From: Anaerolineae bacterium
Lineage (GTDB): Bacteria > Chloroflexota > Anaerolineae > 4572-78 > J111
Length of the DNA: 64,000 nucleotides
Assembly (NCBI GenBank): GCA_016926805.1
Contig: JAFGNV010000181.1
Coordinates: 101,564-165,563 of the forward strand
Reading direction: 5' to 3'
Every line of letters begins with the position of its first letter. Positions within the stretch are counted from its first letter, which is position 1. Shown piece after piece: positions 21,252 through 53,035 of the stretch. A program made the translations under genes and the position numbers. The notes below the pieces were generated by a model, which saw only the letters and a list, made by a program, of their open reading frames with translations, was not told the origin of the DNA and did not search any database.

Positions 21252-21793
21252 TCTAATTGGGCCAGTTTTTGCTGAACACTCTTGAGACAATCACCCATTT
21301 GGGCGTCAGGAGAAAAGCGGAGGATGCTGCTTAAAGCCTGGATAGCATCGTCAACGGGGGCGAAGGTTACCGGTAGCCACTGGTTGTTCCCCAGTGGTAT
21401 CGCCAGGTCGGCCACATAGTCCACGCCCCCTTCCCTGAGAGTGAAGTCACGTTCGGGGTGGAGGTCAGCTTCTTTGAGAGTTACGTATAATCTCCCGGCC
21501 GGTGACTCCTTCTCAAATAAATCGTTGATTTCCTCGGCGGTTTCAAATCTATCCCCGGTAGTGACAATAAACGTGATGCGTCGCCAGTTATGGGAGACAA
21601 TCGGCGGCAATTTGTGTTGTAGCGGGCCAAGCTGGAGCTGGTAATACCAGGTATTGGCCCGTTTGTGATTTGGTTCTGTGGGAATGAGGTCTTTACGGGT
21701 CAGCAGTTCGTGGCCTTCGATGTGGGCGTAGTAGTGAATGGCCCACCTGTCGCTGCCGAAGGTTTGGGTGCTGTAGTGTTCAAAATTTGCCAA
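21248..21793 (-). CDS. Hypothetical protein, probably interrupted at its 5' end by an integrated element
   Basis: This 181-aa soluble protein (WAIHYYAHIEGHELL, RLYVTLKEADLHPERD, WLPVTFAPVDDAIQAL) matches no family I recognise. Its first 31 codons overlap the 3' end of the serine recombinase in another frame on the same strand. The likeliest explanation is that the recombinase-bearing element inserted into this gene, so only the 3' portion remains and MANFEHYS may not be its natural start. Its remaining 5' part should then lie at the other end of the element, which I could not find in this window. The 3' end overlaps glpC by four bases, convergently. Confidence 0.55.
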   Translation of the reverse strand: MANFEHYSTQTFGSDRWAIHYYAHIEGHELLTRKDLIPTEPNHKRANTWYYQLQLGPLQHKLPPIVSHNWRRITFIVTTGDRFETAEEINDLFEKESPAGRLYVTLKEADLHPERDFTLREGGVDYVADLAIPLGNNQWLPVTFAPVDDAIQALSSILRFSPDAQMGDCLKSVQQKLAQLD

Positions 21794-23448
21794 TCGACGT
21801 TAAGAATCGGAAGTGTTATATCCCCTAATCTGCAACTTACGTAAATAATCTTTTGGTCGTTTTCTACAGCTAGTGTCCCTTCTAAATCTAAAGCCTCAAT
21901 CAGTTGACGACGAACGTTAATATTTGTTTCTGCATAGAAAATACCTTTATCTACTTTCTGCGCAAATTGATCGATAATATCTTGGGCTTGCTCTTCAGTT
22001 AGTTCGAGTTGATTCAATTGGGTCATAAAAGCCCTCTCTTGTTTTTTTAGCGCATTAATCGCTGTTTCTAGTCCGGCAATCTTTTCTGACAACATTTCAT
22101 GGGCTACCTCACCCGATATATGGAGATCCAGAGCTCGTTTAAGTTGAGCCTTATTTTCTCCAATCGCAGTTTTTACCGTTTGTAGCCTTTCTTGTAGCAA
22201 ATTTCGCTCTCGCTCTCGTTCGGCTTGAGTTGAAGCCAAGGCCTCTTTAAGAATATTAGGATCTGTAAGTATGGACTTGAGCCATTCCCAGATAATACCA
22301 TCGACATGTTTGACGCGGAAGCTGGGTAGATCACAGGTGCTATTGCTATAGCGAAATCTGTCACTTGAAGGACAGCGATAGTATTGGTACAGTATTCCAT
22401 TATTCCACTTGGTATTACCCATAATGCTTAAGCCACATTGGCAGGTTAGACGTTTTGCCAGTAGATATTCATGTTTGATATTGCGTTTCGCGACTGATCG
22501 ATTTTCTTCAAGCCTCTGTTGCGTTATCTGCCAAGTCTCCATTGTGATTATGGGTGGAACCTCAACGGTGATACGGTGTTCCTCTGGGTTCTCGATAAGT
22601 TTTCCGTTCGAGTTTCTTCGTTTGCCAAATTGCCATTCGCCAATATAGGTTCGATTGCCCAAAATCATACGTACCGATGAGCTTGTCCAATGCCCGTAAC
22701 CATTTCGACGCTTGAATTTCTTGAGTTTTTCAGGGTCTTTGACGCGAAGATCTTTGTACGTTGGAATTTTCATCTCAGTCAATCGTTTTGCGATTAATCG
22801 GACGCCGAGTCGTTCTGGACCAGTGTACCATTCAAAAATGGCCCTGATAATGGTAGCTTCTTTCTCGCAGATCTCGAGTTTGTCTATATAACCATTACTT
22901 ATCAATTTATAGCCATAAGGTGGTTGCTGGGCTACGCTGACATGACCGGCTCGTACTTTATTCCTTCTGCCTCGAACTGACCTTTGTTTGGTTTTTTCAC
23001 GTTCGTATTGGGCTACAATACCTCGAATATGGCGTAGTAAATCACCCTCTGGGGTGTTATCGTAGCTTTCAAGAACATACTCTATTCTTACGTCGAATTT
23101 TTCAAGATCTTTTTCCAACCAAAGCAATTTGCCCAAATCTCGACTGAATCGATCTACTTCTCGGATGACAACAACATCAATCTCTTTGTTTTTGGCTAAC
23201 TCTAGAAGATGTTCGAGACCTGGTAAATTCCAATTAGCTCCGCTAACTCCCTCTTCTTTGATTTCGGCAACAACCTCATAATCTTGTTGCTTACAATACT
23301 CACGCCCCATTACAATTTGGCCTTCGAGATTCCGCCCTTCATTTTTTTGATCATCATAAGAGGTACGTGCGTATAGAGCCGCACGGTCTTTGATAACATA
23401 TTTTGTTGATTCATCTACACTGTTTTGACTGTTATTTTGCTGTGACAT
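21700..23448 (-). CDS. Large serine recombinase (integrase)
   Basis: This 582-aa site-specific recombinase has the catalytic serine in ALYARTSYDD (about residue 30) and REVDRFSRDLGKLLW of the resolvase core (20-160). A Recombinase domain follows (about 185-300, PPYGYKLI, GHWTSSSVRMILGN), then a zinc ribbon (CQCGLSIMGNTKWNN ... CPSS, about 340-370) and a long coiled-coil (about 410-500). The last 25 residues (TTAPKPSAATGG...) look unlike a family C-terminus and overlap the neighbouring ORF, so the recombinase probably borrows its stop codon from flanking DNA. It is AT-richer than its left neighbours, consistent with transfer. It should integrate and excise the element to its right. Confidence 0.93.
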   Translation of the reverse strand: MSQQNNSQNSVDESTKYVIKDRAALYARTSYDDQKNEGRNLEGQIVMGREYCKQQDYEVVAEIKEEGVSGANWNLPGLEHLLELAKNKEIDVVVIREVDRFSRDLGKLLWLEKDLEKFDVRIEYVLESYDNTPEGDLLRHIRGIVAQYEREKTKQRSVRGRRNKVRAGHVSVAQQPPYGYKLISNGYIDKLEICEKEATIIRAIFEWYTGPERLGVRLIAKRLTEMKIPTYKDLRVKDPEKLKKFKRRNGYGHWTSSSVRMILGNRTYIGEWQFGKRRNSNGKLIENPEEHRITVEVPPIITMETWQITQQRLEENRSVAKRNIKHEYLLAKRLTCQCGLSIMGNTKWNNGILYQYYRCPSSDRFRYSNSTCDLPSFRVKHVDGIIWEWLKSILTDPNILKEALASTQAERERERNLLQERLQTVKTAIGENKAQLKRALDLHISGEVAHEMLSEKIAGLETAINALKKQERAFMTQLNQLELTEEQAQDIIDQFAQKVDKGIFYAETNINVRRQLIEALDLEGTLAVENDQKIIYVSCRLGDITLPILNVDWQILNTTAPKPSAATGGPFTTTPTSKATNC

Positions 23449-29777: not shown

Positions 29778-29914
29778 CGAGCAGGGTTTAACAATTCTCT
29801 TGGGTGGGAGATCAACCACGCTACTTCACTTGGAGTCAGGCCGGTCATCCGGCATTGTCACAACCTGGGCCTTCTCGCGGACTCTCCTCAAGTTGGATTC
29901 CGGGAGTCGCACCA

Positions 29915-35497: not shown

Positions 35498-36553
35498 TTA
35501 ACCCACAGCCACGCTGCGAAACATCTGCTCAAAGGAGTCGCTGTTGGTGCTGGGAGGCGGGCCATTCTGATAAACTTGTTGAATTACTTCTCCGGGAGAT
35601 AGTAGCTCCTGGCCGCGCTGCTGATGCGCTTGCATAGCTTCGGCTGCCGCCGCTTCCAGTTGCAGGGCATAAGAATTCAGGCCATAAAGCATTGCTGATG
35701 AACGACTCAAGGCAATAGCGACCCTACTGATATCCTGGCCGCTAAAAATGATGAGGCCCATCTTCACCATCCACGCCGGCATTAATGAGGCGGCGGCAAG
35801 ATTCAAGATTGAACTTCCTATTGCTGGATCATGGCAAGTGACGGGTTCGAAAAAACCGACACAAGCTGGTACTACATGTTTGACGAAGTAATCGCGTATG
35901 GCCTCTGGCTCGTCTTCTGGCAAGACCAGCCCGGCCAGCAGCACCGCCCCGCCAAGGATATTGTCGGGATGGCACAAGGCTTGCTTGAGCCGTTCGTGAA
36001 CCATCTGCTCGCCAGTTAACCCTATGGTCATTTCTGCTAACAGTCTAGCGACAGGCCATGGTGTATACACCTCGGCGTTATTGCTACCCATATTCACCCA
36101 AGTCTGATAGAGATAGCCCAGAATATCGGGTCCACTGAGCGGGCCGGCAATGTTGAGACTGTTTGGCTCGCCCCACAAGCCGGGGGCCGTCGCTTCCAGC
36201 AGCAAGGCGAATGCCTCGCCAAAATGTTGCCAGATACGGTGGGTGCGCTCTTCGTTTAGCCAGCCGCCGGCATAGTGGGTGCGAATTTGGGCAAACGTTT
36301 CGGCGATTTCCGGTGGATCGTCGGCAAAGTGACCGGTGGCCCCGACCGCTTTGATCTGTTCCGGCAAGGCTTTCAAGGTCGCCTCAGACAGGAAGACAAA
36401 ATGATCGAAAACCTCACGGTTGGTTCTGCCCGAGATGGCCGTGATTTGCTCAAGCCGCCGGATGATTTCTTTGGGAAAGTCACGTTGGGCAAAAGGGACA
36501 GCCGTTCGCTTTTTTAAGCGACGGCGTTTGACGGTTTTTTTGTTAGCCATCAT
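35498..36553 (-). CDS. Degenerate N6-adenine methylase-like protein (paralogue 1)
   Basis: This 351-aa protein carries remnants of an N6-DNA methylase fold: AEVYTPWPVARLLAEM (like the TP-x-x-V entry motif), CHDPAIGSSILNLAAAS (like the SAM-binding DPACGSG motif, but altered) and LYGLNSYALQLEAA. No NPPY/NPPF catalytic motif is visible, so methyl transfer is unlikely. The N-terminal third (ATGHFADDPPEIAETFAQIRTHY ... GEAFALLLEATAPGL) is shared with the 371-aa protein at 39197-40312. The C-terminus ends near SFEQMFRS, a variant of the SFADLF tail on two neighbours. It overlaps the upstream gene by four bases. It may be a structural or binding component rather than an enzyme. Confidence 0.65.
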   Translation of the reverse strand: MMANKKTVKRRRLKKRTAVPFAQRDFPKEIIRRLEQITAISGRTNREVFDHFVFLSEATLKALPEQIKAVGATGHFADDPPEIAETFAQIRTHYAGGWLNEERTHRIWQHFGEAFALLLEATAPGLWGEPNSLNIAGPLSGPDILGYLYQTWVNMGSNNAEVYTPWPVARLLAEMTIGLTGEQMVHERLKQALCHPDNILGGAVLLAGLVLPEDEPEAIRDYFVKHVVPACVGFFEPVTCHDPAIGSSILNLAAASLMPAWMVKMGLIIFSGQDISRVAIALSRSSAMLYGLNSYALQLEAAAAEAMQAHQQRGQELLSPGEVIQQVYQNGPPPSTNSDSFEQMFRSVAVG

Positions 36554-39196: not shown

Positions 39197-40312
39197 TTAT
39201 GAGCCAGCCGATTGGGGCGGCTTCTGGAACAAGTCGGCAAAGGAGGGGTGACCGGCTTGCCGGCGGGGTTCGGTCGAATCTCCAGTTTCTTGAGTCAACG
39301 GTGGTCGAGTTGGATAGACTGCCAGGGGAGGAACATCGAGGGGGTCGTCGGCCTGTTGTGCCAGTTGCGCCTGGACGTCGGCGAGTGCTCGCGATTGGGC
39401 CAGCCGGTAGCCGTTCAAGCCAAACAGCATTGTATTGATGTTGGCCATCTGCCGCAGCAGGGGATCGGTGGGTTCCCAGACCACACGGACCAGAGCGCTC
39501 TCTAACGCCCACGCTGGAAACTGCGCGGCCGCCGCCAGCAGCATCGCACTGGAGTCAACCAGCGGCGGCCCGACCAGCAGCGGCTCGGCATACGGCAGAA
39601 CGGCCTCATACCATTCGGCGAAATTGTCGCCGGGTTCCGGCGTAAGCGCAACCCCGGCGCGGTGGGCCTTCAGCCCGGCGTACACCAGAACCGTGTTGGC
39701 TTGCTCTGCGCCATCGGGAATAGCAGCCTGGGCCGCGATCAGACAGTCGGCCCAGGAGTCGCCAAAGAACGGGGTCCATCTGGCCGGGAAATCGAGACAG
39801 GTCAGAAACACCTGGCCGATGACGTTGGGATTGAGGTCGGTTTGTTGACCGTAGTGGGCCAGGCCGGGTGCGGCGCTGTCCAGCAGCAGGGCAAAGGCTT
39901 CGCTAAAGGCAGCCTGCATCTGGCGATAAACGGCCGGATATTGGGCCGAAGCGCGCAGATACCGCTCTCTGGCCCGGCTGAAGATGGCCTGGATGTCGGG
40001 GGGGTCTTGGGCAAACTGGCCGGTAGCCGTCAGCGCCCGCCATTGCTCCGGCCACATCTTTAAGCCACTTTCCAGCATCCCCAGCCAATCTTTCAGTAGC
40101 GTGATGATGGGGATAGTTGACGTGGCCGCCATCTGCCGGATGAGGTGGGCGATGACTTGCACATATGGGTTGTCTATCTGTGCGGGAACAAGCGTAGGTC
40201 GGTGGGGAACCGGCCTGGGCTGGTCTAGCGGGGCGGGGAGTCTTCGCGTGGCAGGTGGGGAATGGGTGCTTGGATTCGTCGTCGCACGACGGCGTTTGTG
40301 TTTTTTGCTCAT
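39197..40312 (-). CDS. Methylase-like scaffold protein (paralogue 2) with SFADLF tail
   Basis: This 371-aa protein is clearly related to the 351-aa protein at 35498-36553. Shared blocks include TATGQFAQDPPDIQAIFSRARERY, SEAFALLLDSAAPGL, RWTPFFGDSWADCL and NTMLFGLNGYRLAQ. The SAM-site block is further decayed (VDSSAMLLAAAAQFPAWAL), and no catalytic NPPY is seen. The N-terminus is a basic, Pro-rich tail (MSKKHKRRRATTNPST), and the C-terminus ends HPSFADLFQKPPQ, nearly the same tail as its upstream neighbour. It starts inside the stop of that neighbour (ATGA) with GGAGAAAG upstream. I infer a non-catalytic partner, perhaps a substrate or docking subunit of the ubiquitin-like system. Confidence 0.65.
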   Translation of the reverse strand: MSKKHKRRRATTNPSTHSPPATRRLPAPLDQPRPVPHRPTLVPAQIDNPYVQVIAHLIRQMAATSTIPIITLLKDWLGMLESGLKMWPEQWRALTATGQFAQDPPDIQAIFSRARERYLRASAQYPAVYRQMQAAFSEAFALLLDSAAPGLAHYGQQTDLNPNVIGQVFLTCLDFPARWTPFFGDSWADCLIAAQAAIPDGAEQANTVLVYAGLKAHRAGVALTPEPGDNFAEWYEAVLPYAEPLLVGPPLVDSSAMLLAAAAQFPAWALESALVRVVWEPTDPLLRQMANINTMLFGLNGYRLAQSRALADVQAQLAQQADDPLDVPPLAVYPTRPPLTQETGDSTEPRRQAGHPSFADLFQKPPQSAGS

Positions 40313-40608
40313 CGTTCTTTCTCCGGCAGGTCACGATTTTGCTTGTGTTTGAACAGGTCGGCGAAGGATGGGTCAACCGGTGGCGGCGGCGACCGCTTGT
40401 TCAACGTTATCTCCACCACCGTCTTGCCGGCTTCATCCGTAACGTGGGTCAACTGGTGCTGGCCGGGCAACGTCTTGACCATCGCCGCCATTTGCTGAAC
40501 AAACTCCAACGCCAGATCGCGGTTGATCGCCAACCGTTCGTGCAGGAGCGGCGGCCCGCCGTTCTTGCCGGTGACGGTGATTTCGATGTTTGCTTCAGGC
40601 TGTGCCAT
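40309..40608 (-). CDS. Small beta-rich protein with SFADLF tail
   Basis: This 99-aa protein has alternating strands and a helix (NIEITVTGKNGGPPLLHERLAINRDLALEFVQQMAAMVKTLPG ... GKTVVEITLNK), compatible with a small alpha/beta fold. The proline-rich C-terminal tail ends DPSFADLFKHK. The tail nearly repeats that of the 371-aa protein. It overlaps the E1-like gene by 14 bases and the next gene by four. It could be an adaptor or a second modifier. I cannot assign a family. Confidence 0.6.
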   Translation of the reverse strand: MAQPEANIEITVTGKNGGPPLLHERLAINRDLALEFVQQMAAMVKTLPGQHQLTHVTDEAGKTVVEITLNKRSPPPPVDPSFADLFKHKQNRDLPEKER

Positions 40609-41830
40609 CGGTCACCGCCTCGTTTTCCGGGATCAAGGCGTACCATTCGCACTGGAGGCAATTGAGGACCGGCACGGGCCGGCCATTGCCCTCAAAATCA
40701 ACCACATCCTCGCCAAGCTCCCCGCCGCACTCGGGACAAACTTCCTCCCGCCAGGGACACGCGGCGCAGAAGCGCACCGCAATCAAGACGCCCCGGTACT
40801 CGTCCTGCCCGGCAATGATCTCGCCGCCACAATCGGGACAGGTTTCGGCCATTTCCTCCGGCGCGGCGGCTCTGACCGGGATGTGTTGGGGCCGTTCGGG
40901 CAGCACCAACCGCCCGCCGGTGATGGGGATACTCTTGGTCATACCGGTTTGAAGATTCACCCAGGAGCCGGACCAACCCAAATCTCGACTTTGTAGCAGG
41001 CGGTACAGGTACACGCCCACCAGCGTGGCCATCATCCGGTTGATCATGGCACTCTGTTCGCCCCGCAAGTTCAGGTCGGCGCAGCTCAACTCTTGTTGGA
41101 GATGATCTCGCTCCAACAGCAAACTCGGTTCCTGAAGGTGGGGTAGCGGCAGGCCGAGGCAGTAGCCCAGCGGCGAGAGCAGCGGTTCCGGCTCCAGGCT
41201 GTTGCCGATCAAGACCTGGCCGCTCAGCCGCTCGTTGCCGGCGTCCAGCCAGAAGAACTTGTGTTGGCTGCCATGCTGTTGTTTGAGTTTGGCCGTGATG
41301 GCCTCGGCCATTTTGCGCCGGGCGCAAACATTGTCCACCGCGCCGATGACGATGGTCAGCGTGCCCTGGGGAGAGTAAGCCGGTTGGAAACGATCCAGCA
41401 ATTCTGCCGAGAATTGTTCCACCACCGGGGTGATGGTCAGGCCAAAGGCCGCGGTGTAACGCCAGGCCAGGCTGAAGGCCTTGGGATAGCCGACCTCGGC
41501 GGCACAGAAATTCTGGCGCACCAGGTTCTTTTCCTCAATGATATCGTGGTCCACAAAGTAGAGCCGCAGGTCAATCCCGGCGCTCCTGGCCCAGTTGGCC
41601 AACTGAGCCAGGATGTGGGCCACGAACGCCCCTGTACCGCCACAACCTATCAACAAAATGACCACCCGATCAGGATGGCCGATGTCGAGGCGATAGGTTT
41701 TGTGAGGACTGAGGGGGCGGGGTAGTAAGGGGGGAAGCAACCGTCGGTAAAGACGCTTTAGAAGCGTGCGGCCTTGTTGACCAACGTACAATGCGAGTTG
41801 TTTGAGATAGAGCCAATAGGGTTGCATCAT
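40595..41830 (-). CDS. E1-like ThiF-family adenylyltransferase with C-terminal zinc ribbons
   Basis: This 411-aa protein has a ThiF/E1 core (about residues 45-285). It shows VVILLIGCGGTGAFVAHILAQLA (nucleotide loop), YFVDHDIIEEKNLVRQNF (acidic and arginine motif) and TIVIGAVDNVCARRKMAEAI. It should adenylate the C-terminal glycine of a ubiquitin-like protein. The C-terminal part (about 330-400) adds four CxxC pairs (CPDCGGE, CAAC, CPECGGE and CLQC), forming probable zinc ribbons. PRTRC ThiF proteins that I know of are shorter and lack them. It overlaps the JAMM protease gene by four bases. Transfer via a catalytic cysteine is possible but cannot be located confidently. Confidence 0.85.
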   Translation of the reverse strand: MMQPYWLYLKQLALYVGQQGRTLLKRLYRRLLPPLLPRPLSPHKTYRLDIGHPDRVVILLIGCGGTGAFVAHILAQLANWARSAGIDLRLYFVDHDIIEEKNLVRQNFCAAEVGYPKAFSLAWRYTAAFGLTITPVVEQFSAELLDRFQPAYSPQGTLTIVIGAVDNVCARRKMAEAITAKLKQQHGSQHKFFWLDAGNERLSGQVLIGNSLEPEPLLSPLGYCLGLPLPHLQEPSLLLERDHLQQELSCADLNLRGEQSAMINRMMATLVGVYLYRLLQSRDLGWSGSWVNLQTGMTKSIPITGGRLVLPERPQHIPVRAAAPEEMAETCPDCGGEIIAGQDEYRGVLIAVRFCAACPWREEVCPECGGELGEDVVDFEGNGRPVPVLNCLQCEWYALIPENEAVTDGTA

Positions 41831-42513
41831 TTCCTCCAGGGTAACAGATTTGTTAGCCAGCCGTCCTCGATAGTGGGGGCAAAGGGTGCCGGTTCGCCGG
41901 GGTCAACGTAGACCTGGACAAAAGGGCCAAGATCATCAAAGATGGCTTGGGCCGGCACGTTGGCCAGCCAGTGGCCGTGCATCCCTAATCTCAAGACCAA
42001 CTCCGGCTGCGCTCGTTCTAGGTGGCCGATGACGCCGTAAAATCTTCCGCCCATTTCGTCTCGATCATCCGTGCCGGAGAAAAAAGCCGGCATCGTATTG
42101 TGCGAGTGAATCTCTACGGCGACCCCGGTCGGGTCGGCAGTGTAACCGAGCCAGGTTTTGCCGCGTTCCTGCCGAGGGCGAATGACGGCCCACCGGTTTT
42201 GGGCCGGGTCAAAGCGGAATTGGTAGAGTACTTCCAGTTCCAGGTTTTGCCGGGCGTCGGCCAGTATGTCTTGCAGCAAGCGGCCGGGAATGCGCGGCAG
42301 TTTGAAGCGCACCGGCGGTAAGGGATACGTCGCCAGCCGCAGGCCGGTCAGTGAGACGTCAAGGGGCGCCAACAGGTGGTCGGCGGAAACAAACGGCGTC
42401 TCCAGGCGCTTTACGATGCCCTGCGCGGAGAGGACATAATCATACAACCGTTCGGGCCGGGGCAAGGGGTTGCCCTGATACAGGTAGATGGGGATCAAGT
42501 TTTCATTGAACAT
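41827..42513 (-). CDS. JAB/JAMM metalloprotease (PRTRC protein A-like)
   Basis: A 228-aa protein. A complete JAMM zinc site is visible: VEIHSHNTMPAFFSGTDDRDE fits HxH-x7-SxxD, with an upstream glutamate (RQERGKTW or nearby) as candidate catalytic base. The flanking regions match PRTRC-type A proteins (LPRIPGRLLQDILADARQ, GGRFYGVIGHLERAQPELVLRLG). Members of this family are expected to process or remove ubiquitin-like modifiers. Here the tandem Ubl protein encoded about 1.5 kb upstream is the obvious substrate. The gene overlaps both neighbours (4 and 11 bases), implying coordinated translation with E1 and E2. Confidence 0.85.
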   Translation of the reverse strand: MFNENLIPIYLYQGNPLPRPERLYDYVLSAQGIVKRLETPFVSADHLLAPLDVSLTGLRLATYPLPPVRFKLPRIPGRLLQDILADARQNLELEVLYQFRFDPAQNRWAVIRPRQERGKTWLGYTADPTGVAVEIHSHNTMPAFFSGTDDRDEMGGRFYGVIGHLERAQPELVLRLGMHGHWLANVPAQAIFDDLGPFVQVYVDPGEPAPFAPTIEDGWLTNLLPWRK

Positions 42514-43234
42514 GGATCAACCTCCGTAGGGTGAAATGAGTTTCGATTAGATCGTCCAGGGGATAGACGTCGGCATTGGCCTGGTGCAGCGCCTGCCACT
42601 GGTCGAGGATGCAATCGGGGTAGGCTTTGCTTTTGTGGTTGGACAGGTCGCGGTTGAACTTGCTGCTGAAAAAGATGTCCAGCGCGTGCCAGATGGTGGT
42701 CGCACTGGCGCGGGGAAAGGGCGCGCTGCCGCGACAGACGCCTTGAGGATGGACGTTGGGGCAGGGGGCCAGGTACAGCGGGGTGTCGGCGCCGGTGGGT
42801 TCATCCTTCACCGCCCATAAGCCGTAGTCGTAGTCGTGGCCGGTGAAGACCAGGCCGGGCAGCGGCACCCGCCAGGCCTCTGTTTCGTCCCGCACGCTGA
42901 CCAGCCAGACCTGGGGCGGCACGAAAATCCCCAGCCGGTCGGCGCCGTGGTGTTTGCCCCAGAAGAGGCAGTGGCGGGGCAGCAGGCCGGAGTTAAGGTC
43001 CAACCCGGCCAGGGTCGCCGCCAATTCGGTGGGATCAACCAGGTGACAGGCGGACACCTGGCCTTGCTTGAACTTGGAAAGTATCACAAAATCGTCATAC
43101 AAATCCAGGCGAACCTGGAGTTGGGCATAGTCGGCTTCGCCCCACTGGAGAGCCGGGTAGATCAGGTCGGGAATAGCGGTCGGTTCCTGAGGTAGGTGAG
43201 GGGGAGAAGCGTGGGGATTACCATGCAAGGTCAT
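42503..43234 (-). CDS. E2-like conjugating protein (PRTRC protein B-like)
   Basis: About 243 aa. It matches PRTRC protein B, a prokaryotic E2-fold family. CPNVHPQGVCRGSAPFPRAS corresponds to the conserved N-H-G-x-C block with a candidate catalytic cysteine, and DIFFSSKFNRDLSNHKSKAYP follows the family pattern F-x-S-x-F-N. The first third (LYDDFVILSKFKQGQVSACHLV) is beta-rich. I start at MTLHGN because the GGAGGT inside the longer ORF start serves as its ribosome site. It overlaps both neighbours. It is expected to accept the modifier from the E1-like protein and pass it to targets. Confidence 0.8.
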   Translation of the reverse strand: MTLHGNPHASPPHLPQEPTAIPDLIYPALQWGEADYAQLQVRLDLYDDFVILSKFKQGQVSACHLVDPTELAATLAGLDLNSGLLPRHCLFWGKHHGADRLGIFVPPQVWLVSVRDETEAWRVPLPGLVFTGHDYDYGLWAVKDEPTGADTPLYLAPCPNVHPQGVCRGSAPFPRASATTIWHALDIFFSSKFNRDLSNHKSKAYPDCILDQWQALHQANADVYPLDDLIETHFTLRRLIHVQ

Positions 43235-44096
43235 GACAATTACCTCCATTCATCAAAAAATCGGCCAGTTGCGCCAGGCGGCCGTGATCCTGTTCGTACC
43301 ACGCCAGCAGTCGATCCAATACCTCGATCACCGGTTTGGCCCGCCGCCAGGCGGTTTTGAGCTGCTCCACGTCAGGCTCCCGCCAGGTGAACCACGGTCC
43401 TTCCCGGTAGGGGTCGAAGTGCTGATCCAGCATCACGTTGCCGGTGCGATGGCCGGCCCAGCGGGCCAACTCCGGCAGCCAACGCACCGGCTCGGCATAC
43501 CGGCCCGGGTCGGCCTCGATCTGCTGCAACAGCCTCCAGGCCGACTCGCGCTCCTGCGGCGTCCACTCGTCCAGATGGTCGTACAACTCGCTGTCGATGA
43601 GCAGTTGGGAACTGACGGCGTGGATTTCGCACTCGGCCAACAACGCGTGCAGCAGTTCCATCGGCGGGCAGTCGAACAGGGACTCGGTGTCGGTGAAGCC
43701 GTACAGGGTGACCGGAACGTAATGTAAGAACACGGCCAGGTGATCGCCCCGTTCTTCATCCGGATTCTCCATCCAGTGGGACCAGGCATCGTTGAGCACC
43801 GGCCAGTTGATGGTGAACCAGTCGGCTTCTTCGACCAGGTTGGCCAGGTGAGCGAGTACTTCCCACCAACCTTTGCCGGATAGATCGCCGTCGTCGGCCA
43901 GCGCTGCCGGAAAGTACTGCTCGATGAGGCGCAGTCCCCGGCCCAGCCGTTCGTACTCGCCCAGGCGATATTGGAAGCCGGTCAGGGTGACCGGCCGCAG
44001 CCGCCCCAGCCAGGCCCGGGGACGGATCACCTGGCCCGGTTGGGTCAAAAGCCCAGCGGAATCTTTGGATGGGGTATCGGCGTCAGTTGTAAACAT
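43218..44096 (-). CDS. Unknown cluster protein (PRTRC-like context)
   Basis: This 292-aa, mostly helical protein is rich in Trp, Leu and Glu (GLRLIEQYFPAALADDGDLSGKGWWEVLAHLANLVEE, VPVTLYGFTDTESLFDCPPMELLHALLAECEI). I recognise no motif. It sits between the tandem Ubl gene and the E2-like gene, the slot held by an accessory protein in PRTRC operons. Its start overlaps the Ubl gene by 52 bases, and the ATG lacks a clear ribosome site, so a later start (for example TTG near LLTQPGQVIRP) is possible. Confidence 0.65.
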   Translation of the reverse strand: MFTTDADTPSKDSAGLLTQPGQVIRPRAWLGRLRPVTLTGFQYRLGEYERLGRGLRLIEQYFPAALADDGDLSGKGWWEVLAHLANLVEEADWFTINWPVLNDAWSHWMENPDEERGDHLAVFLHYVPVTLYGFTDTESLFDCPPMELLHALLAECEIHAVSSQLLIDSELYDHLDEWTPQERESAWRLLQQIEADPGRYAEPVRWLPELARWAGHRTGNVMLDQHFDPYREGPWFTWREPDVEQLKTAWRRAKPVIEVLDRLLAWYEQDHGRLAQLADFLMNGGNCHDLAW

Positions 44097-44842
44097 TGTT
44101 GTCCGATCCTTTGGCTGGTCGTGGCGATACGTTCGGCCTGGTGCAGCGCGCTCTCGATCTCCGGGGTCAGCGCCAGCAGATGGCTGACGCTGAAGGCCTG
44201 CTGGTCGTCGGTTTCCATAGCCCTGATCCGGTCGAGCAGGGTGATGGCCTGCAACTGGGTGGGAGGCAGTTGGTTCAGGCAGGCTACCAGTTGGCGCGGC
44301 GCGACACCGCCGCCCTTTTCGCCGGTGACTTTGACGAAGGTGATCTCCTCGGTACCATCCGGTAGGGTGCGCGTGTGCCAGGTGCCGTTGCCGAGTTCGG
44401 GATACGTCATTGCCAGGAAGTCGAGCACGTCTTGCGCCGAATATTCCGGGCCCGGATCGGCAAAGACCTGGCTATCGTACAAAAAGACCCGCCGGTAGGG
44501 AGAGTGGTTATCTGTAGGAGCTGGCAGCAGCGGCGGGCTGTCAGATGGCAGGTCGTAGATGGTGACCTGGCCGCCCTTTTCGCCGGTGACTTTGACAAAG
44601 GTGATCTCCTCGACGGCTCCAGCCGGGCCGTCGGGAATGGTGCGGCTGTGCCAGGTGCCGTTGCCGAGCTCGGGATAGGTCATCGCCAGGAAGTTGAGCA
44701 CATCCTGCACCGAATACTCCGGCCCCGGGTCCTCAAAGACCTGGTTGTCGTACAAAAAGACCCGCCGGGGGGCGGGTCGGTCTGGGGCGGAGGCCGAGGA
44801 AACCTGGCCTTGTGCTGGTTGATCAAAAAAATCGGCTTGCAT
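44045..44842 (-). CDS. Tandem ubiquitin-like (PRTRC protein C-like) precursor
   Basis: This 265-aa protein contains two near-identical beta-grasp units. Unit 1 spans about residues 27-92 and unit 2 about 117-178. Each begins RRVFLYD, has DPGPEYS(V/A)QDVL(N/D)FLAMTYPELGNGTW and ends in KVTGEKGG. They match PRTRC protein C, a ubiquitin-like family (LPDPGP, YPEL, GTKG signatures). A roughly 24-residue linker separates the units. A helical C-terminal region of about 85 residues follows the second GEKGG. Diglycine ends inside a longer chain suggest a precursor cut to expose GG, like polyubiquitin. AGGAG precedes the ATG. Downstream come E2, JAMM and E1 genes. Confidence 0.85.
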   Translation of the reverse strand: MQADFFDQPAQGQVSSASAPDRPAPRRVFLYDNQVFEDPGPEYSVQDVLNFLAMTYPELGNGTWHSRTIPDGPAGAVEEITFVKVTGEKGGQVTIYDLPSDSPPLLPAPTDNHSPYRRVFLYDSQVFADPGPEYSAQDVLDFLAMTYPELGNGTWHTRTLPDGTEEITFVKVTGEKGGGVAPRQLVACLNQLPPTQLQAITLLDRIRAMETDDQQAFSVSHLLALTPEIESALHQAERIATTSQRIGQQCLQLTPIPHPKIPLGF

Positions 44843-44903: not shown

Positions 44904-45338
44904 TTACTGGCCGGCGCCGTCCGCACCGGGCACGGGGTTGGCGATGACGGTTTCAGCCGTCACCGGCGCGGTGGCGATGATGACCGGCGTGGCTTTGCGG
45001 AACAGCCGACTCAAGGAACGCTGGAAGCGAACCGCCAGACTTAATACTTCGTGCCGCCACAGGTAGAAGGTCACCACGCCGCCGGCCAGAAAGGATAGGG
45101 CGACTAAGGCCACGATAGACCAGATGAGGCGGCGCTGATGACGGATCAACCAGGCCTTCAGCCGGGGCCAGCGAACGATGACAGGATGTAAAACCCAGCG
45201 AAACGGCGCCGTCAGCAGGCGGAGGACCGCTTCGCCCAGGCCGACCAGGCGGAACCAGAGATACAGGGCTAAACCTTGTACATAAAATAGGCCGATGTGG
45301 GGTCGGCGTTGTTCCGAGGTGGTTGTTTGGGTATTCAT
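44904..45338 (-). CDS. Single-pass membrane protein of the cluster
   Basis: About 144 aa from MNTQTTTSEQ; the ORF-track start is 47 codons earlier without a ribosome site. It has an amphipathic or hydrophobic N-terminal region (GLFYVQGLALYLWFRLVGLG) and one clear transmembrane helix (IWSIVALVALSFLAGGVVTFYLW). A basic stretch lies between them (RWPRLKAWLIRHQRR). Function unknown. It may tether the ubiquitin-like machinery to the membrane, which is inference. Confidence 0.6.
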   Translation of the reverse strand: MNTQTTTSEQRRPHIGLFYVQGLALYLWFRLVGLGEAVLRLLTAPFRWVLHPVIVRWPRLKAWLIRHQRRLIWSIVALVALSFLAGGVVTFYLWRHEVLSLAVRFQRSLSRLFRKATPVIIATAPVTAETVIANPVPGADGAGQ

Positions 45339-45603
45339 TTTTACAGTTCCTTTCTTTAATAATATGGTTTGGATTGAATGTTTGGGTGAGTTGACTGAAT
45401 ACGAAACGTAGAGTGGGCGATAGACATCACCTCCTTTGGCGAAAAAGCATTTGTGACAAAGTAAAAAGGCGGAGGACACACGACACCACCTGATGGGGTT
45501 CGGACAGTCTCCGCTGAAATATTTGATTGGGTTTTGAGAGCAATGTGGGAGACTTCAGACCAGTCCTTGCGAAGAATGACGATAGCCTGACAGGAGAGGA
45601 ACG

Positions 45604-45936
45604 TTACCGGATTGGATTCACAATGCGTCGATAGGCCAGCAGAGTACTGATGATGACCGGCACGAACAGCAAGGGCAGCAGCAAAAGCCAGGCCCAGGCG
45701 TGAGGTCTGGTTGTATTGGCCTGGGTAGACTCAGCGCGTGGGTGACGATAAAGAACGTCGGCGATTTCATCCGGCAGCCAGACCACGGCGCCGGGACTGG
45801 TCAGATCGGCTTCCGCTTGCCGGAAGGCGCTGGCCCAGCGCCGGTTTTGAGTGACGGCCACCTCGTCGTCAAGTTCGGTTTGCACCTGACGCAGGGCGTC
45901 TTTCCAGTACAGTTTCTCACTATTTTGGTGGTTCAT
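45604..45936 (-). CDS. Small C-tail-anchored membrane protein
   Basis: This 110-aa protein has a charged, helical N-terminal half (WKDALRQVQTELDDEVAVTQNRRWASAFRQAEADL) and one C-terminal membrane helix (WAWLLLLPLLFVPVIISTLLAY). It starts one base after its upstream neighbour's stop codon. No family recognised. The 265 bases to the next gene downstream contain nothing I can name. Confidence 0.6.
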   Translation of the reverse strand: MNHQNSEKLYWKDALRQVQTELDDEVAVTQNRRWASAFRQAEADLTSPGAVVWLPDEIADVLYRHPRAESTQANTTRPHAWAWLLLLPLLFVPVIISTLLAYRRIVNPIR

Positions 45937-45937
45937 T

Positions 45938-46609
45938 TCAGCCTCCGTTGATCATTTCACCGGCGGCCACCGGCACCGGTTTTAACAGGGCTTGGTATTC
46001 CAACGGGAACATCAATTGCAGCCCGGTCAGGGGGCGTTGGTGCTTGAGCGCAATTTGGGCAGCATAGGCCAATAGATGGCGGGTGTTCTCGCTGATCTGG
46101 TAATGCGGCGGCAATGCCGCATCGGTGATGTTGGCGTTTAGGGCAAAGTCGTGCCAGGCGGTGATCATTTCCCGGTGTTTGATTTCCAGGTCTTCCAATA
46201 CCTGAATCAGCGGGGGGTACAGCAGGCTGGCTTCCCGACACATGGCTTCTTTCAGGTCGGCGGTCGGGCCGTTCAGCCACTGATAATTGCCGTGTTCGGC
46301 GCTGCGCCGATCCCCGCCGAATTGAGCCATCAATGCTTTGAGCCGGCCTGCCGAACCGGCGCAATGAGTCAGCCAGAACTGCTCGCGGTTGTATCCGTTG
46401 AAGTCACAATAGGTCACCAGGTAGCGGTGCAGTGTTGGCGTAAAGAACAATTTCTTACAGCCGTTGAGTAGGAATTGTTGCCAGTCGTGCAGCACCTGCC
46501 ATTTGTCGGCGGCAGACATGGTGACGGCTTCGCCACGATTGGGGATGATGATTTTTTCATCGGTGAAAGTGTAGGCTTCATTATTAATGAAGGGGATATG
46601 GATATTCAT
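45938..46609 (-). CDS. Hypothetical first gene of the minus-strand cluster
   Basis: This 223-aa, mainly helical soluble protein (SAADKWQVLHDWQQFLLNGCKKLFF, YNREQFWLTHCAGSAGRLKALMAQFGG, LLAYAAQIALKHQRPLTGLQL) has AGGAGC before the ATG. It is the promoter-proximal gene of the operon that ends in the ubiquitin-like genes, preceded by a leader of about 160 bases. No motif identifies it. Confidence 0.6.
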   Translation of the reverse strand: MNIHIPFINNEAYTFTDEKIIIPNRGEAVTMSAADKWQVLHDWQQFLLNGCKKLFFTPTLHRYLVTYCDFNGYNREQFWLTHCAGSAGRLKALMAQFGGDRRSAEHGNYQWLNGPTADLKEAMCREASLLYPPLIQVLEDLEIKHREMITAWHDFALNANITDAALPPHYQISENTRHLLAYAAQIALKHQRPLTGLQLMFPLEYQALLKPVPVAAGEMINGG

Positions 46610-46881: not shown

Positions 46882-47043
46882 ACTTCATTGGTGGGCGAGG
46901 AAGACGCCCATTCAGGTGAATGACCACCAATCATGCACACTCGAAACGTTCGCAGGCAAATTCATAACCTGACGTCGGACATCGGTAGTATATTTGTGAC
47001 TTGCTGACCGCATCGCTCATTATTGGACGATGCGGTTTTTTTT
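46882..47043 (+). ncRNA. Candidate structured small RNA of about 160 nt
   Basis: The interval between the promoter and the terminator folds well. ATTGGTGG (46887-46894) pairs with CCACCAAT (46924-46931). Between them lie a GGCG/CGCC hairpin and ATTCAggTGAAT (46910-46921). A CGAA/TTCG hairpin follows near 46941-46951. The layout of promoter, three-way junction-like fold and intrinsic terminator is that of a stand-alone ncRNA. A 24-codon ORF (MHTRNVRR..., 46933-47007) lies inside without a ribosome site, so a leader peptide cannot be excluded. It sits exactly between the ubiquitin-like cluster and the CRISPR locus. I do not recognise it as a known RNA class or as a CRISPR-derived RNA. Confidence 0.5.
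47008..47043 (+). terminator. Rho-independent terminator of the candidate ncRNA
   Basis: CCGCATCG pairs with CGATGCGG, followed by eight T bases. It is oriented for plus-strand transcription and overlaps the stop of the convergent Csx3 gene. Confidence 0.85.
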
Positions 47044-48202
47044 AGGCGATCTCGATTGATTCACCGAGGGGGTGTTGGTCTGTTTGCTGCGAGGCGACAA
47101 TAATGGCCCGGTGCTGATGAGGATAATAGATAGCCACCCAGCACGCCCGTCGATAAAAAAGGGCCAGGCCGGTGTAGAGCCAGGTGGGTAATTTGCCGTC
47201 TAGAATCACCCCATGAGTTGACGGAACTGGGGGCAGGGAAAGAGACAGTTCCGGCTCATATTCCAGATAATCAGCAGGTAGGTCCACTTTTAAATGAAGG
47301 TAGTGTTCCGTTTGTTCGGTAGTAAGCGCGAGTGATGATTTTATGGGGCGAGCGTCGACAAAAATGACCGGTTCAACCCAACCACGGCGGGCATCGAATT
47401 GGTAAAAAGGGTTGGGGGAAATGTAGCCCGCTATCGCGGCATATAACCAGGCCGGACCTCGTCCATACAGCGCCAGCGGAGTATCTTGGGGAAGATAATC
47501 GAGAACAGGTGGAATGTCATCAGGATGCCACCGGTAGCCTGAACGGGAGGGATACAGCTGCCGGTAAAGACGAACCAGATCAACCACCAGATCAGTGGGT
47601 GCTTGCTGTTGGTGGATGTTCAATAGCTCATCATAGCTGTAATTGCAGAGGGCTTTTATACGTGTCACCAAAGCCTCAAATACGGATCCTTCAACCAGTT
47701 GACCCCGTTCCAAATTGGTAATAACTCCCTGCAAGATAGGATACTCAACTTCTAACTCAGATTGACCAACCAAACGCGACTTTAAGATAGCAATGATCGG
47801 CACGTGATATTTTTCCATCATTGCCTGCCAATAAGTTTCTGATTCGGCGTCTTTGACCAGCAAGACGGCGTGACTGCACAGATCAAAAATATCTTCCTGC
47901 CACGATTCTGGTTTGCCGCCAACATCGACCAGAAAAGGGAGAGGGCGGTAAGCAATGTCGCGACACATTTGCTTGACCCAGGTTGGCGTGAATTTTCCTT
48001 TGCGTCGCTCGGTTTCGGCCACAGCGGGAGGGGCCTCGTGAAACCAATCACCCTCACCATCAGGGGCAGCTCGTAGTAAATAATGTTGAATACCGGCCTT
48101 GGTCAGGGCTTCTTTTAGGCTGCGGGCCAGCACCGATTTTCCGGCGTGGGGTGGCCCACCAATGAGAATGGCTGGAAAGCGACTGGTAACTCTATTGGCC
48201 AT
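47042..48202 (-). CDS. csx3: P-loop NTPase fused to Csx3 (Crn3-like) domain(s)
   Basis: About 386 aa from MANRVTSRF. Residues 1 to about 210 form a P-loop NTPase (ILIGGPPHAGKSVLARSL; FLVDVGGKP as a likely Walker B region; HAVLLVKD). The C-terminal half contains two related segments. LALYGRGPAWLYAAIAGYI...YQFDARRGWV is the first, and VILDGKLPTWLYTGLALFYRRACWVAIYYP is the second. The latter matches the Csx3/Crn3 family, whose members degrade cyclic tetra-adenylate, so this protein probably damps type III signalling. NTPase-Csx3 fusions are known. The doubled Csx3-like segment is less familiar to me. It is divergent from the CARF regulator, sharing a 58-base promoter region. Confidence 0.8.
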   Translation of the reverse strand: MANRVTSRFPAILIGGPPHAGKSVLARSLKEALTKAGIQHYLLRAAPDGEGDWFHEAPPAVAETERRKGKFTPTWVKQMCRDIAYRPLPFLVDVGGKPESWQEDIFDLCSHAVLLVKDAESETYWQAMMEKYHVPIIAILKSRLVGQSELEVEYPILQGVITNLERGQLVEGSVFEALVTRIKALCNYSYDELLNIHQQQAPTDLVVDLVRLYRQLYPSRSGYRWHPDDIPPVLDYLPQDTPLALYGRGPAWLYAAIAGYISPNPFYQFDARRGWVEPVIFVDARPIKSSLALTTEQTEHYLHLKVDLPADYLEYEPELSLSLPPVPSTHGVILDGKLPTWLYTGLALFYRRACWVAIYYPHQHRAIIVASQQTDQHPLGESIEIA

Positions 48203-48260
48203 TAGATGTAGCTCGCTTTCTATAATGAGCCGATGATTTTGATGGCGACAGGATGGACCT

Positions 48261-49145
48261 ATGGATAGGAACCACGGCTCTATAATGATTGCCACCCTGG
48301 GGGGACAACCCCAGTTGGTGACATTTGCCCTGGATGAACTGCTGGCGCGGGGTGAGAACATTCATGAAGTGATTGTGCCCTTTCTATCTGCCGAGGGCAG
48401 CCGGGTCAATCGTGCCCTGGACAGGCTCTCGGCAGAGTTTGTCGGCGACTACTACCTTCACGCTAACCATCCCTGTCGCTTGCGGCCAATGCCCATTCGA
48501 GATGAGCTGACCCGTTTGCCGGATATTCAAACCGAGGCCGACGCCAACGCCACCTGGGAAATGCTGCGAGACTTGATCATCACCTTAAAGAACGAACGCC
48601 AGCAACTGCACGTGTGCGTGAGTGGGGGGCGGCGGGTGATGGCGCTGGTGTTGGTTTCGGCGGCGTTGCTGCATTTTAATTACCAGGATAAAATGTGGCA
48701 TATTTACACTCCCGAGGCTTTTTTGGAACAGGCGCAGGAGGGCGCCATGATGCACGCCCGCCCCGAAGATGGCGTGCGGTTGATCCAGGTGCCCCTGGTG
48801 CCGCTGGGCACGCAGTTCCCCATTTTGCGCCAATTGGCCCAGGCCGAGTACGCGACCTTGTTACAACCGGACTCGCTGAAGAAAACCGAACAGGAGCCGT
48901 GCCAGGCCGTGTGGGCGCAATTGAGCTTACGGCAGCGAGAAGTGCTGCGTTTGCTGGCCGACGGCCAGACGCCCCAAGAAGTGGCCGATACGCTGGCTAT
49001 TTCCATCAAAACACTCGATACGCATAAGACCGCCATTTTGGCCGAGTGCCGGGTGGCCTGGGGCCTGCCGGATGACCATTGGCTGGATTACCACTTTTTG
49101 CGAGACAATTTTGGTCCGTTCCTGAGATTTAAGGATAACACATAA
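48261..49145 (+). CDS. CARF-domain regulator with LuxR-type HTH (Csx14/NE0113-like)
   Basis: This 294-aa protein has an N-terminal CARF-like domain (IATLGGQPQLVTFALDELLARGENIHEVIV at the start; VCVSGGRRVMALVLVSAALLHF as the second ligand loop) resembling the Csx14/NE0113 family. The C-terminal LuxR/GerE helix-turn-helix (LSLRQREVLRLLADGQTPQEVADTLAISIKTLDTHKTAILAEC) should bind DNA. It is likely a cyclic-oligoadenylate-responsive transcription factor for the csm operon or the divergent csx3 gene. An internal ATG at 48285 (MIATLGG) is an alternative start. A terminator separates it from cas10. Confidence 0.82.
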   Translation: MDRNHGSIMIATLGGQPQLVTFALDELLARGENIHEVIVPFLSAEGSRVNRALDRLSAEFVGDYYLHANHPCRLRPMPIRDELTRLPDIQTEADANATWEMLRDLIITLKNERQQLHVCVSGGRRVMALVLVSAALLHFNYQDKMWHIYTPEAFLEQAQEGAMMHARPEDGVRLIQVPLVPLGTQFPILRQLAQAEYATLLQPDSLKKTEQEPCQAVWAQLSLRQREVLRLLADGQTPQEVADTLAISIKTLDTHKTAILAECRVAWGLPDDHWLDYHFLRDNFGPFLRFKDNT

Positions 49146-49151
49146 TTAATT

Positions 49152-49182
49152 AAAAAACATCAGAGGTATCTCTGATGTTTTT
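49152..49182 (+). terminator. Rho-independent terminator after the CARF regulator
   Basis: AAAAACATCAGAG and CTCTGATGTTTTT form a long perfect stem with a four-base loop, followed by a short T run. It insulates the regulator from the csm operon. Confidence 0.8.
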
Positions 49183-49249
49183 GGGAGGGATTTCTGATGC
49201 AAAATGCGTCATAATCAGATACGATATTATAGACAAGAGAGGAGGTTGT

Positions 49250-51811: not shown

Positions 51812-51817
51812 CAGAGT

Positions 51818-52246
51818 ATGACTATCACCACTATCCCTGACTTAGAAAAAAAGCTTAAAGATGAAAAAGGACCTCTATCGGCCATATTATCGCCCCAGGA
51901 TTTTGCCGATGAGGGCGCGGTAGCCGATGTGATGGCCCAGAAGTTCAAGAAAGATCTGAATCCTACTCAGATGCGTAAGGTTTTTCATGCCTTCAAGCAA
52001 ATTGAGCGCAAACTCAAAGGCAAGCCGGATGGCGATAATCTGGACGGGTTTCGGGCAGAGATCAGTTTGATTACGCCCAATCTGGCTTATGCTGTTGGGC
52101 GGAAATTGATGCCTCCCGAATTTTATGACGTGTTAAAGCTTTGCCTTAAACCGGATAAACTGCAAACCGTAGGCGACTTCAGACGGCTCACTGAATTTCT
52201 GACCGCCATTCTGGCCTATCAAAAGTATTACAGCAAAGGAGACTGA
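51818..52246 (+). CDS. csm2: Csm2, small subunit of the effector complex
   Basis: This 142-aa helical protein (AVADVMAQKFKKDLNPTQMRKVFHAFKQIERKLKGK, RKLMPPEFYDVLKLCL, FRRLTEFLTAILAYQKYY) matches Csm2 in length and pattern, especially the LNPTQMRKVF segment and the AYQKYY end. It lines the target-RNA channel of the complex and does not cut. AAAGGAG precedes the ATG, six bases after cas10. Confidence 0.92.
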   Translation: MTITTIPDLEKKLKDEKGPLSAILSPQDFADEGAVADVMAQKFKKDLNPTQMRKVFHAFKQIERKLKGKPDGDNLDGFRAEISLITPNLAYAVGRKLMPPEFYDVLKLCLKPDKLQTVGDFRRLTEFLTAILAYQKYYSKGD

Positions 52247-52252
52247 AAACTG

Positions 52253-53032
52253 ATGACCACGCAATGGAAATTTTTGGGTAAATATATTCTGCAAGGCAAA
52301 ATCCACTGCCAAACCGGCCTGCACATTGGCGGCAATACCGAAGGCTTTGAAATTGGCGGGATGGATAACCCGGTGGTTGTTAACCCGCTCAATGACCAGC
52401 CCTATATTCCCGGTTCATCGCTTAAAGGTAAGTTGCGGCATTTACTTGAATGGAACCTGGGAAAAATAGAGAAAAAGAACCCGGATAAAGAAAATGAAAC
52501 CTATGGACCGCATTTTTGTGGCAAATGTGAAGCCTGCCGGATATTTGGGCCAGCCAATAACGAGGCCGATGTGCGTGAAATGGCCGGACCGACCCGCCTG
52601 TCGGTACGCGACTCTTTTCTAACCAGTAAGAGCGTTACCGAATTACCGCAATGGCTGGGGGAAGGTATTTTTACCGAAGCCAAAACTGAAAACGCAATAG
52701 ATCGTGTAACCGCTGTCGCCAACCCCCGTCCCATCGAGCGCGTGCCGGCCGGGGCCGAATTTGATTTCACCGTCATCTTTGACGTTTATCGGGAGGAGGA
52801 TCGCGCCCTGCTGAAGCATCTCTTTACCGCAATGGCCATGCTGGAAGACAGCGCCCTGGGCGGCGGCGGCTCGCGCGGTCACGGCGTAATTGCGTTCAAA
52901 GAATTAAAAGCCGAATGGCGTTCGGTTGAATATTACCGGAACGGCACATCGGCCAAACCTGTTTCGGTTATTGAGAAAAAGGCTATGAAACAAATCGTTT
53001 CTGACTTTAAGGTGGAAGATTGGAAGGTATAG
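52253..53032 (+). CDS. csm3: Csm3, backbone RNase subunit
   Basis: This 259-aa RAMP protein has LHIGGNTEGFEIGGMDNPVVVN, in which the aspartate of GGMDNP is the expected target-RNA cleavage residue. It also has the SSLKGKLRHLLEW glycine-rich helix, FCGKCEACRIFGP, and ALGGGGSRGHGVIAF near the C-terminus. Multiple copies should form the filament and cut bound RNA every six bases. It sits seven bases after csm2. Confidence 0.95.
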   Translation: MTTQWKFLGKYILQGKIHCQTGLHIGGNTEGFEIGGMDNPVVVNPLNDQPYIPGSSLKGKLRHLLEWNLGKIEKKNPDKENETYGPHFCGKCEACRIFGPANNEADVREMAGPTRLSVRDSFLTSKSVTELPQWLGEGIFTEAKTENAIDRVTAVANPRPIERVPAGAEFDFTVIFDVYREEDRALLKHLFTAMAMLEDSALGGGGSRGHGVIAFKELKAEWRSVEYYRNGTSAKPVSVIEKKAMKQIVSDFKVEDWKV

Positions 53033-53035
53033 GCC

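Follow-up and report, generated by a model that had tools for sequence, protein, structure and literature searches.

How does a ubiquitin-like (Ubl) modifier become available for conjugation when it is encoded as two units in one chain and neither unit lies at the end of that chain? This question is raised by an operon in a 64,000-nucleotide stretch of DNA, hereafter the window, from an uncultured Anaerolineae bacterium of the Chloroflexota (assembly GCA_016926805.1, contig JAFGNV010000181.1, positions 101,564-165,563, forward strand). An initial annotation, made from the letters of the sequence, described a single minus-strand run of overlapping genes for a two-domain Ubl protein, an E2-like protein, a JAMM protease and an E1/ThiF protein, and the coordinates of the open reading frames (ORFs) agree with that description. 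However, it omitted the gene for a protein of 292 amino acids (aa) at 43218-44096, and the core has five parts. All five ORFs are on the minus strand, with an overlap between every adjacent pair:

44045..44842, minus strand: protein C, 265 aa, with a leader (aa 1-25), Ubl1, a linker, Ubl2 and a helical tail (ORF, PRTRC_C and Prok_Ub profiles, structural model)
43218..44096, minus strand: helical protein of 292 aa at the F position (located between C and B; hhalign)
42503..43249, minus strand: E2-like protein (PRTRC B / Prok-E2_D), 248 aa, with invariant Cys172 (profiles, alignment, model)
41827..42513, minus strand: JAMM protease (PRTRC A), 228 aa, with E94, H136, H138, S146 and D149 (profiles, alignment)
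40595..41830, minus strand: E1/ThiF, 411 aa, with invariant Cys250, an N-terminal extension and a C-terminal Cys-rich domain (profiles, alignment)

Our answer, to which we give a probability of about 0.6, is that C is a tandem, tailed Ubl precursor, which JAMM would cut after GEKG, probably at the internal copy as well, to provide two single-glycine modifiers for conjugation by E1 and E2. The domain matches of the operon proteins lie far beyond chance. Protein C matched NCBIfam PRTRC_C over two stretches (E 3e-19; 68.9 bits, passing the cut-off of 45.95) and also Pfam Prok_Ub over two stretches (E 1.6e-21, best stretch aa 117-174), in accord with the earlier claim of two PRTRC-C-like domains in one protein. 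The other three assignments held as well: the 248-aa protein matched Prok-E2_D (E 4.1e-20) and PRTRC_B (E 1.3e-15), the 228-aa protein PRTRC_A (E 1.7e-14) and Prok-JAB, and the 411-aa protein PRTRC_ThiF (E 1.3e-34) and ThiF. A comparison of gene order with other genomes, which had been suggested, showed the same order, C-F-B-A-ThiF (Ubl, helical protein, E2, JAMM, E1), in plasmid PRTRC loci. The F-position protein resembles the F-position proteins of other Chloroflexota PRTRC loci (hhalign 4.7e-7) and gave no signal in a profile comparison with plasmid PRTRC F. A sequence search of the PDB with C and E2 gave no match.

Within protein C the following parts can be distinguished:

44573..44767, minus strand: Ubl unit 1, aa 26-90, ending VTGEKG (model strands 26-31, 34-37, 63-69 and 77-83, helix 45-55)
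44312..44494, minus strand: Ubl unit 2, aa 117-177, ending VTGEKG (Prok_Ub stretch 117-174, beta-grasp elements in the model)
44570..44584, minus strand: GEKGG motif 1, aa 87-91, predicted cut after G90 (within the stretch 87-109 of low pLDDT, the predicted local distance difference test)
44309..44323, minus strand: GEKGG motif 2, aa 174-178, predicted cut after G177 (within the low-pLDDT stretch 175-180)
44048..44311, minus strand: C-terminal helical tail, aa 178-265, ending IPLGF (a separate ORF in locus L019; a related tail is separate in L023)

Both domains had been said to end in GEKGG. The motif is indeed present at both places, but the chain does not end at either copy: unit 1 is followed by a 26-aa linker, and beyond unit 2 the chain continues as an 88-aa helical tail. 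In an AlphaFold model each repeat is predicted to have the beta-grasp topology (beta-beta-alpha-beta-beta), with a pLDDT of about 73-88 across most of each unit, and the tail is modelled as helical. Confidence is low at residues 87-109 and 175-180, which surround the two GEKG motifs and are probably flexible. The top structural matches of the C model include FAT10, MoaD-type proteins and ubiquitin chains and are of middling quality (Z 4.4-5, root mean square deviation about 3 Å, 57-60 residues); Foldseek alone returned nothing significant for the C and E2 models. Relatives shed some light on the nature of the tail. In L019 the last residues of C are TTKG, and the tail is encoded by an ORF of its own (97 aa), which likewise ends IPLGF (hhalign 2.2e-6, last 24 residues). 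In L023, C is followed by a separate ORF of 73 aa, for which the alignment with the fused L024 tail is free of gaps (38%). The two groups of tails, the window type and that of the other Chloroflexota, are themselves related (hhalign 1.7e-5). Because the tail is encoded as a separate ORF in L019 and L023, we regard it as an independent partner that has been fused behind the predicted cleavage point.

The position of that point emerges from the alignment of C proteins. The initial annotation spoke of diglycine-ended modifiers, and this is ruled out by the alignment, in which the conserved end is GxKG with one glycine (or KA); the residue after GEKG, a glycine in the window, is S in L016 and T in L017. 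K-G is found in 22 of 23 C proteins from plasmids, one phage and Chloroflexota, and K-A in the remaining one; some of the 23 end there while others run on with an unconserved next residue. Similarly, 41 of 43 viral contigs have K-G and two have K-A; 23 of these proteins end exactly at this place and 20 extend a further 61-100 residues. Standalone C homologues terminate precisely at K-G or K-A. The end of the modifier predicted from these alignments is therefore a single glycine, that of GEKG, and not GG. Type II CBASS likewise uses a C-terminal Gly or Ala (PMC10449767).

Profiles for JAMM, E2 and E1 were run on the loci, and 67 loci with an E1, the window included, could be compared. JAMM was present in all 38 loci in which C extends past K-G. 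In the 29 loci without an extension it was present in two (L019 and L038) and was not found in 27, the search being confined to the locus, so that a copy elsewhere in the genome would escape it. The C extensions of L022 and L027 are among the few that were judged by eye. On a FastTree tree of E1 each trait, C extension and JAMM, changes about six times. Loci L089-L111, L028, L033, L037 and L039 encode E1, E2 and a C ending at K-G or K-A, with no JAMM found in the locus. Many single-domain C proteins run from 2 to 100 residues past KG, and JAMM is present in those loci. In the related viral contigs L069-L088 and the Burkholderia phage BgVeeders33 (L029) the PRTRC core is complete, and the C extensions beyond GTKG vary greatly. 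By this comparison across loci the proteolytic maturation of C is well supported, and since JAMM co-occurs with the C extension, the most economical interpretation makes JAMM the maturase, which would cut after K-G. The earlier proposal of proteolytic processing thus gains support from the co-occurrence, but its second part, that processing is special to the tandem as opposed to single-domain C, is rejected because single-unit C proteins share the same boundary.

The enzymes needed for such a pathway appear to be catalytically intact. The 228-aa protein contains HSHNTMPAFFSGTD, which conforms to HxHx7SxxD, the complete site reported at the outset, and its Glu94, His136, His138, Ser146 and Asp149 are invariant across 15 sequences in an alignment with annotated plasmid PRTRC proteins. 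Cys172 of E2 is likewise invariant across 15 sequences, and the glycine motif, Asp94, Arg105, Lys117, Asp166 and Cys250 of E1 are invariant across 19. In the window, as in the related proteins of L016 and L018, E1 is in addition extended at its N-terminus and carries a Cys-rich domain at its C-terminus; this zinc-ribbon-like extension, at window positions 40645-40858, is shared with those two loci. ThiF-family enzymes also act in sulfur transfer, and no PRTRC conjugate was found in the literature searched. It might then be supposed that unit 1 serves for non-covalent docking or avidity and that the locus makes a scaffold or a sulfur carrier of the ThiS/MoaD kind, without lysine conjugation. 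We judge this to be improbable, for the same operon encodes an E2 whose Cys is invariant and a catalytically complete JAMM, and an operon arrangement with E2 and JAMM has been tied to conjugation, not to sulfur transfer (Iyer et al., PMC1779556).

The tandem arrangement has a narrow distribution. Among 61 genomes of a relatives set and 400 of a phylum set, a tandem C was found only in the window genome and on contig C473 of genome G005 (locus L016), which belongs to a different genus. Single units with a tail are encoded at a second G005 locus (L017) and in G010 (L018). No tandem was found in 43 viral PRTRC loci, each of which gave one C match, or among the plasmid loci read; one listed plasmid has two places, and the C encoded at the one that was read consists of a single unit. 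Close viral relatives of the tandem were also not found. The occurrence in two loci only, with close single-unit relatives, could be taken to mean that the tandem is a functionless, chance duplication of recent date or an artefact of assembly. The second locus makes this very improbable. It is in another genus, it has the same four-residue insert, which is common to both tandems and specific to unit 1, and its two units are saturated at synonymous sites yet retain 87% amino-acid identity with each other, a divergence that disfavors a chance or recent duplication. The window units are 89% identical, with a nonsynonymous divergence (dN) of 0.067, a synonymous divergence (dS) of 0.47 and a dN/dS of about 0.14. 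All four units, from the window and L016, end in EEITFVKVTGEKG. From these comparisons the duplication is old, pre-dating the split of the two genera, and both units, including the terminus of unit 1, are under purifying selection.

The domains, the catalytic residues, the K-G boundary and the association of extended C proteins with JAMM, all read from sequence and its comparison, support the following scheme. C would be made as an inactive precursor with the layout leader-Ubl1-linker-Ubl2-helical tail. JAMM (protein A) would cut directly after GEKG and so remove the tail; the internal GEKG would probably be cut too, and each precursor would then yield two modifiers with single glycine ends. 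The ThiF/E1 protein would adenylate the terminal glycine, Cys172 of E2 would accept the modifier, and the modifier would be joined to lysines of a target protein, possibly one or more proteins of the replication fork. JAMM may also take the modifier off its target.

Conjugation requires one cut end only, a point in favor of a scheme with a single cut, in which JAMM trims the tail and the di-Ubl stays joined and is conjugated through the glycine of unit 2, in the manner of ISG15 or BilA. BilA, itself a two-Ubl protein, undergoes maturation by the JAMM protein BilC (PMC11354881), and BilC is the single PDB match of our JAMM profile, although a weak one (E 0.087). However, unit 1 ends in the same residues as unit 2 in both genomes, despite the saturation of synonymous sites in L016. 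That its terminus was kept speaks against a pure spacer, which need not keep a conjugation end. The inter-unit linker, moreover, is poorly conserved and is modelled with low confidence. We consider a permanently joined di-Ubl possible but rather unlikely, and prefer the release of two separate modifiers.

Several observations weigh against the proposed scheme as a whole. The single line of evidence for a cut at the internal site is its conserved sequence. L019 and L038 have JAMM without a C extension, which fits a deconjugating role equally well. In the co-occurrence survey 20 of the 38 extended loci are closely related Burkholderia-type phages, so that the raw Fisher p of 1e-16 overstates the independence of the cases and has to be read with reserve; a better guide is the number of changes on the tree, six. 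As to E2, most plasmid B proteins have an FTH-type His where the window clade has FNR; this clade has not kept the downstream His described for type 6d E2s by Iyer et al. (PMC1779556). The fold match of the E2 model is weak (Z 3.1-3.9), and the top four of its eight matches are E2s (UBE2S, Ubc15, UBE2L6 and Ubc9), over 114-121 residues. Finally, A (53.8 bits against 101.8), B (57.4 against 131.45) and ThiF (119.6 against 144.75) all score under the NCBIfam equivalog cut-offs.

It is of interest to compare the locus with known systems. In eukaryotes, polyubiquitin and the ubiquitin-ribosomal protein fusions are precursors from which ubiquitin is released by proteolysis after the terminal glycine, by a cysteine protease. 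As in the ribosomal protein fusions, the fused tail of C can be a separate gene in relatives; unlike polyubiquitin, the window protein has linkers between its units, one terminal glycine and JAMM as its presumed maturase. Bacterial conjugation operons that encode polyUbl proteins have been described before, in type 6e and with BilA. Type 6e chains contain two or three Ubl domains and are encoded beside E1, JAMM and E2-like genes (PMC1779556), but in that type E1 and JAMM usually form one fused protein and the Cys is absent from the E2-like domain, whereas in the window the three proteins are separate and Cys172 is invariant. BilABCD shares with the window a two-Ubl modifier, maturation by JAMM (predicted in the window) and separate E1, E2 and JAMM genes; in contrast, both window units bear the same GEKG end, and PADLOC recognised no Bil component. 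In that search C, E2 and JAMM were unmatched, and membership in a defence system was rejected on this route, which offered only generic E1-E2 matches for E1 and the neighboring Csx3. With PRTRC / type 6d (PMC1779556; NCBIfam PRTRC_A, B, C and ThiF) the window shares the gene order, a Ubl with a C-terminal Gly, the helical protein, an E2 with its Cys, a JAMM and a stand-alone E1. It differs in its two Ubl units, its fused helical tail and the Cys-rich extension of E1. No ParB-related gene and no protein E were recognised among the adjacent window proteins scanned by profiles, and for that reason we do not file the locus as a canonical PRTRC cassette, from which the scores of A, B and ThiF also set it apart; because the downstream E2 His is lost, we call it a divergent relative of the 6d core. 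A, B and ThiF are homologous to the PRTRC equivalogs yet divergent, and the locus as a whole is a divergent type 6d / PRTRC core on an integrated element.

The operon is carried by an integrated mobile element. Synteny with a same-genus genome breaks near 21770, inside a host gene that is intact in that genome, and the remainder of the split gene is on contig C207 of the same assembly (G000), at about 3120-3277. The right end of the element is not on this contig. Two genes prolong the operon beyond those listed by the initial annotation (the 99-aa and 371-aa genes below), and L016 keeps the operon together with flanking small genes:

21700..23448, minus strand: large serine recombinase, at the element's left edge (synteny with the same-genus genome stops near 21770)
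39197..40312, minus strand: 371-aa operon protein, no recognised family, SFADLF near its end (50% identical orthologue in L016)
40309..40608, minus strand: 99-aa operon protein, no recognised family, SFADLF near its end (orthologues in L016 and L018)
44904..45479, minus strand: 191-aa protein with a hydrophobic segment, upstream of C (conserved in L016)
45604..45936, minus strand: 110-aa protein whose C-terminal segment is hydrophobic (conserved in both L016 and L017)
45938..46609, minus strand: 223-aa protein (conserved in L016, L017 and L018)

Adjoining the Ubl operon, at 47042-55689, are type III-A CRISPR genes (Cas10, Csm2, RAMPs), an AAA-Csx3 fusion and a Cas_NE0113-LuxR protein; a RAMP protein at 54157-55689 bears a C-terminal cold-shock domain. 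The element also carries an 1843-aa nSTAND1 NTPase with WD40 repeats (29804-35335).

Where might such a system act? In six Chloroflexota PRTRC loci protein E carries a C-terminal QL[ST]LF followed by one residue; the canonical clamp-binding motif is QL[S/D]LF, or more generally QxxLF (PMC12309361). Ends of the QL[ST]LF type occur in 4 of 2275 locus ORFs, all of them protein E; in the remaining two cases the E frame is broken or E lies where the contig ends. A three-domain DnaN is encoded directly upstream of E in five of the six loci (L021, L022, L024, L025 and L026), the contig ending in the sixth, and DnaN also lies just upstream of a gene with an E-like region in the viral contigs L096, L101, L102 and L107, making nine loci in total. 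Some E proteins carry a weaker version of the motif; that of L102 ends KQTNLFV, and plasmid E proteins often end in xLF only, with [LMI]F within the last four residues in 7 of 13, compared to about 2.5% of ORFs. The motifs and the adjacency of DnaN suggest a role at the replication clamp. No DnaN gene was found in the window. Its protein C begins MQADFFD (44842-44820), and QxDFF or QxNFF is kept in the fused-tail relatives L016, L017 and L018 (the N-terminal Q-x-[DN]-F-F variants of C being MQADFFD, MQSNFFD, MDQQDFFE and QSDFF). A shared short motif is found near the ends of the 99-aa and 371-aa proteins (SFADLF in each) and of a 351-aa protein (35498-36553; SFEQMF), a distant paralogue of the 371-aa protein. 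These sequences, and that of C, resemble clamp-binding motifs with part of the consensus missing, and are suggestive only. We tentatively propose, as an idea that is more doubtful than probable, that PRTRC-type systems tag proteins at the replication clamp, in parallel to the modification of PCNA. Protein E would recruit the conjugation enzymes to the clamp, often a dedicated neighboring DnaN, while in the window clade the Ubl precursor and its neighbors would use their own clamp-binding-like motifs, and the tandem would double the supply of modifier.

We found no study of the biochemistry of PRTRC in the open literature searched. For this family the comparison yields a precise prediction, a cut after K-G with JAMM as the maturase, and the C proteins, whether tandem or with a fused, a separate or no tail, are a natural set of controls. 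The association of protein E with DnaN provides a first concrete hypothesis for the site at which such systems act.

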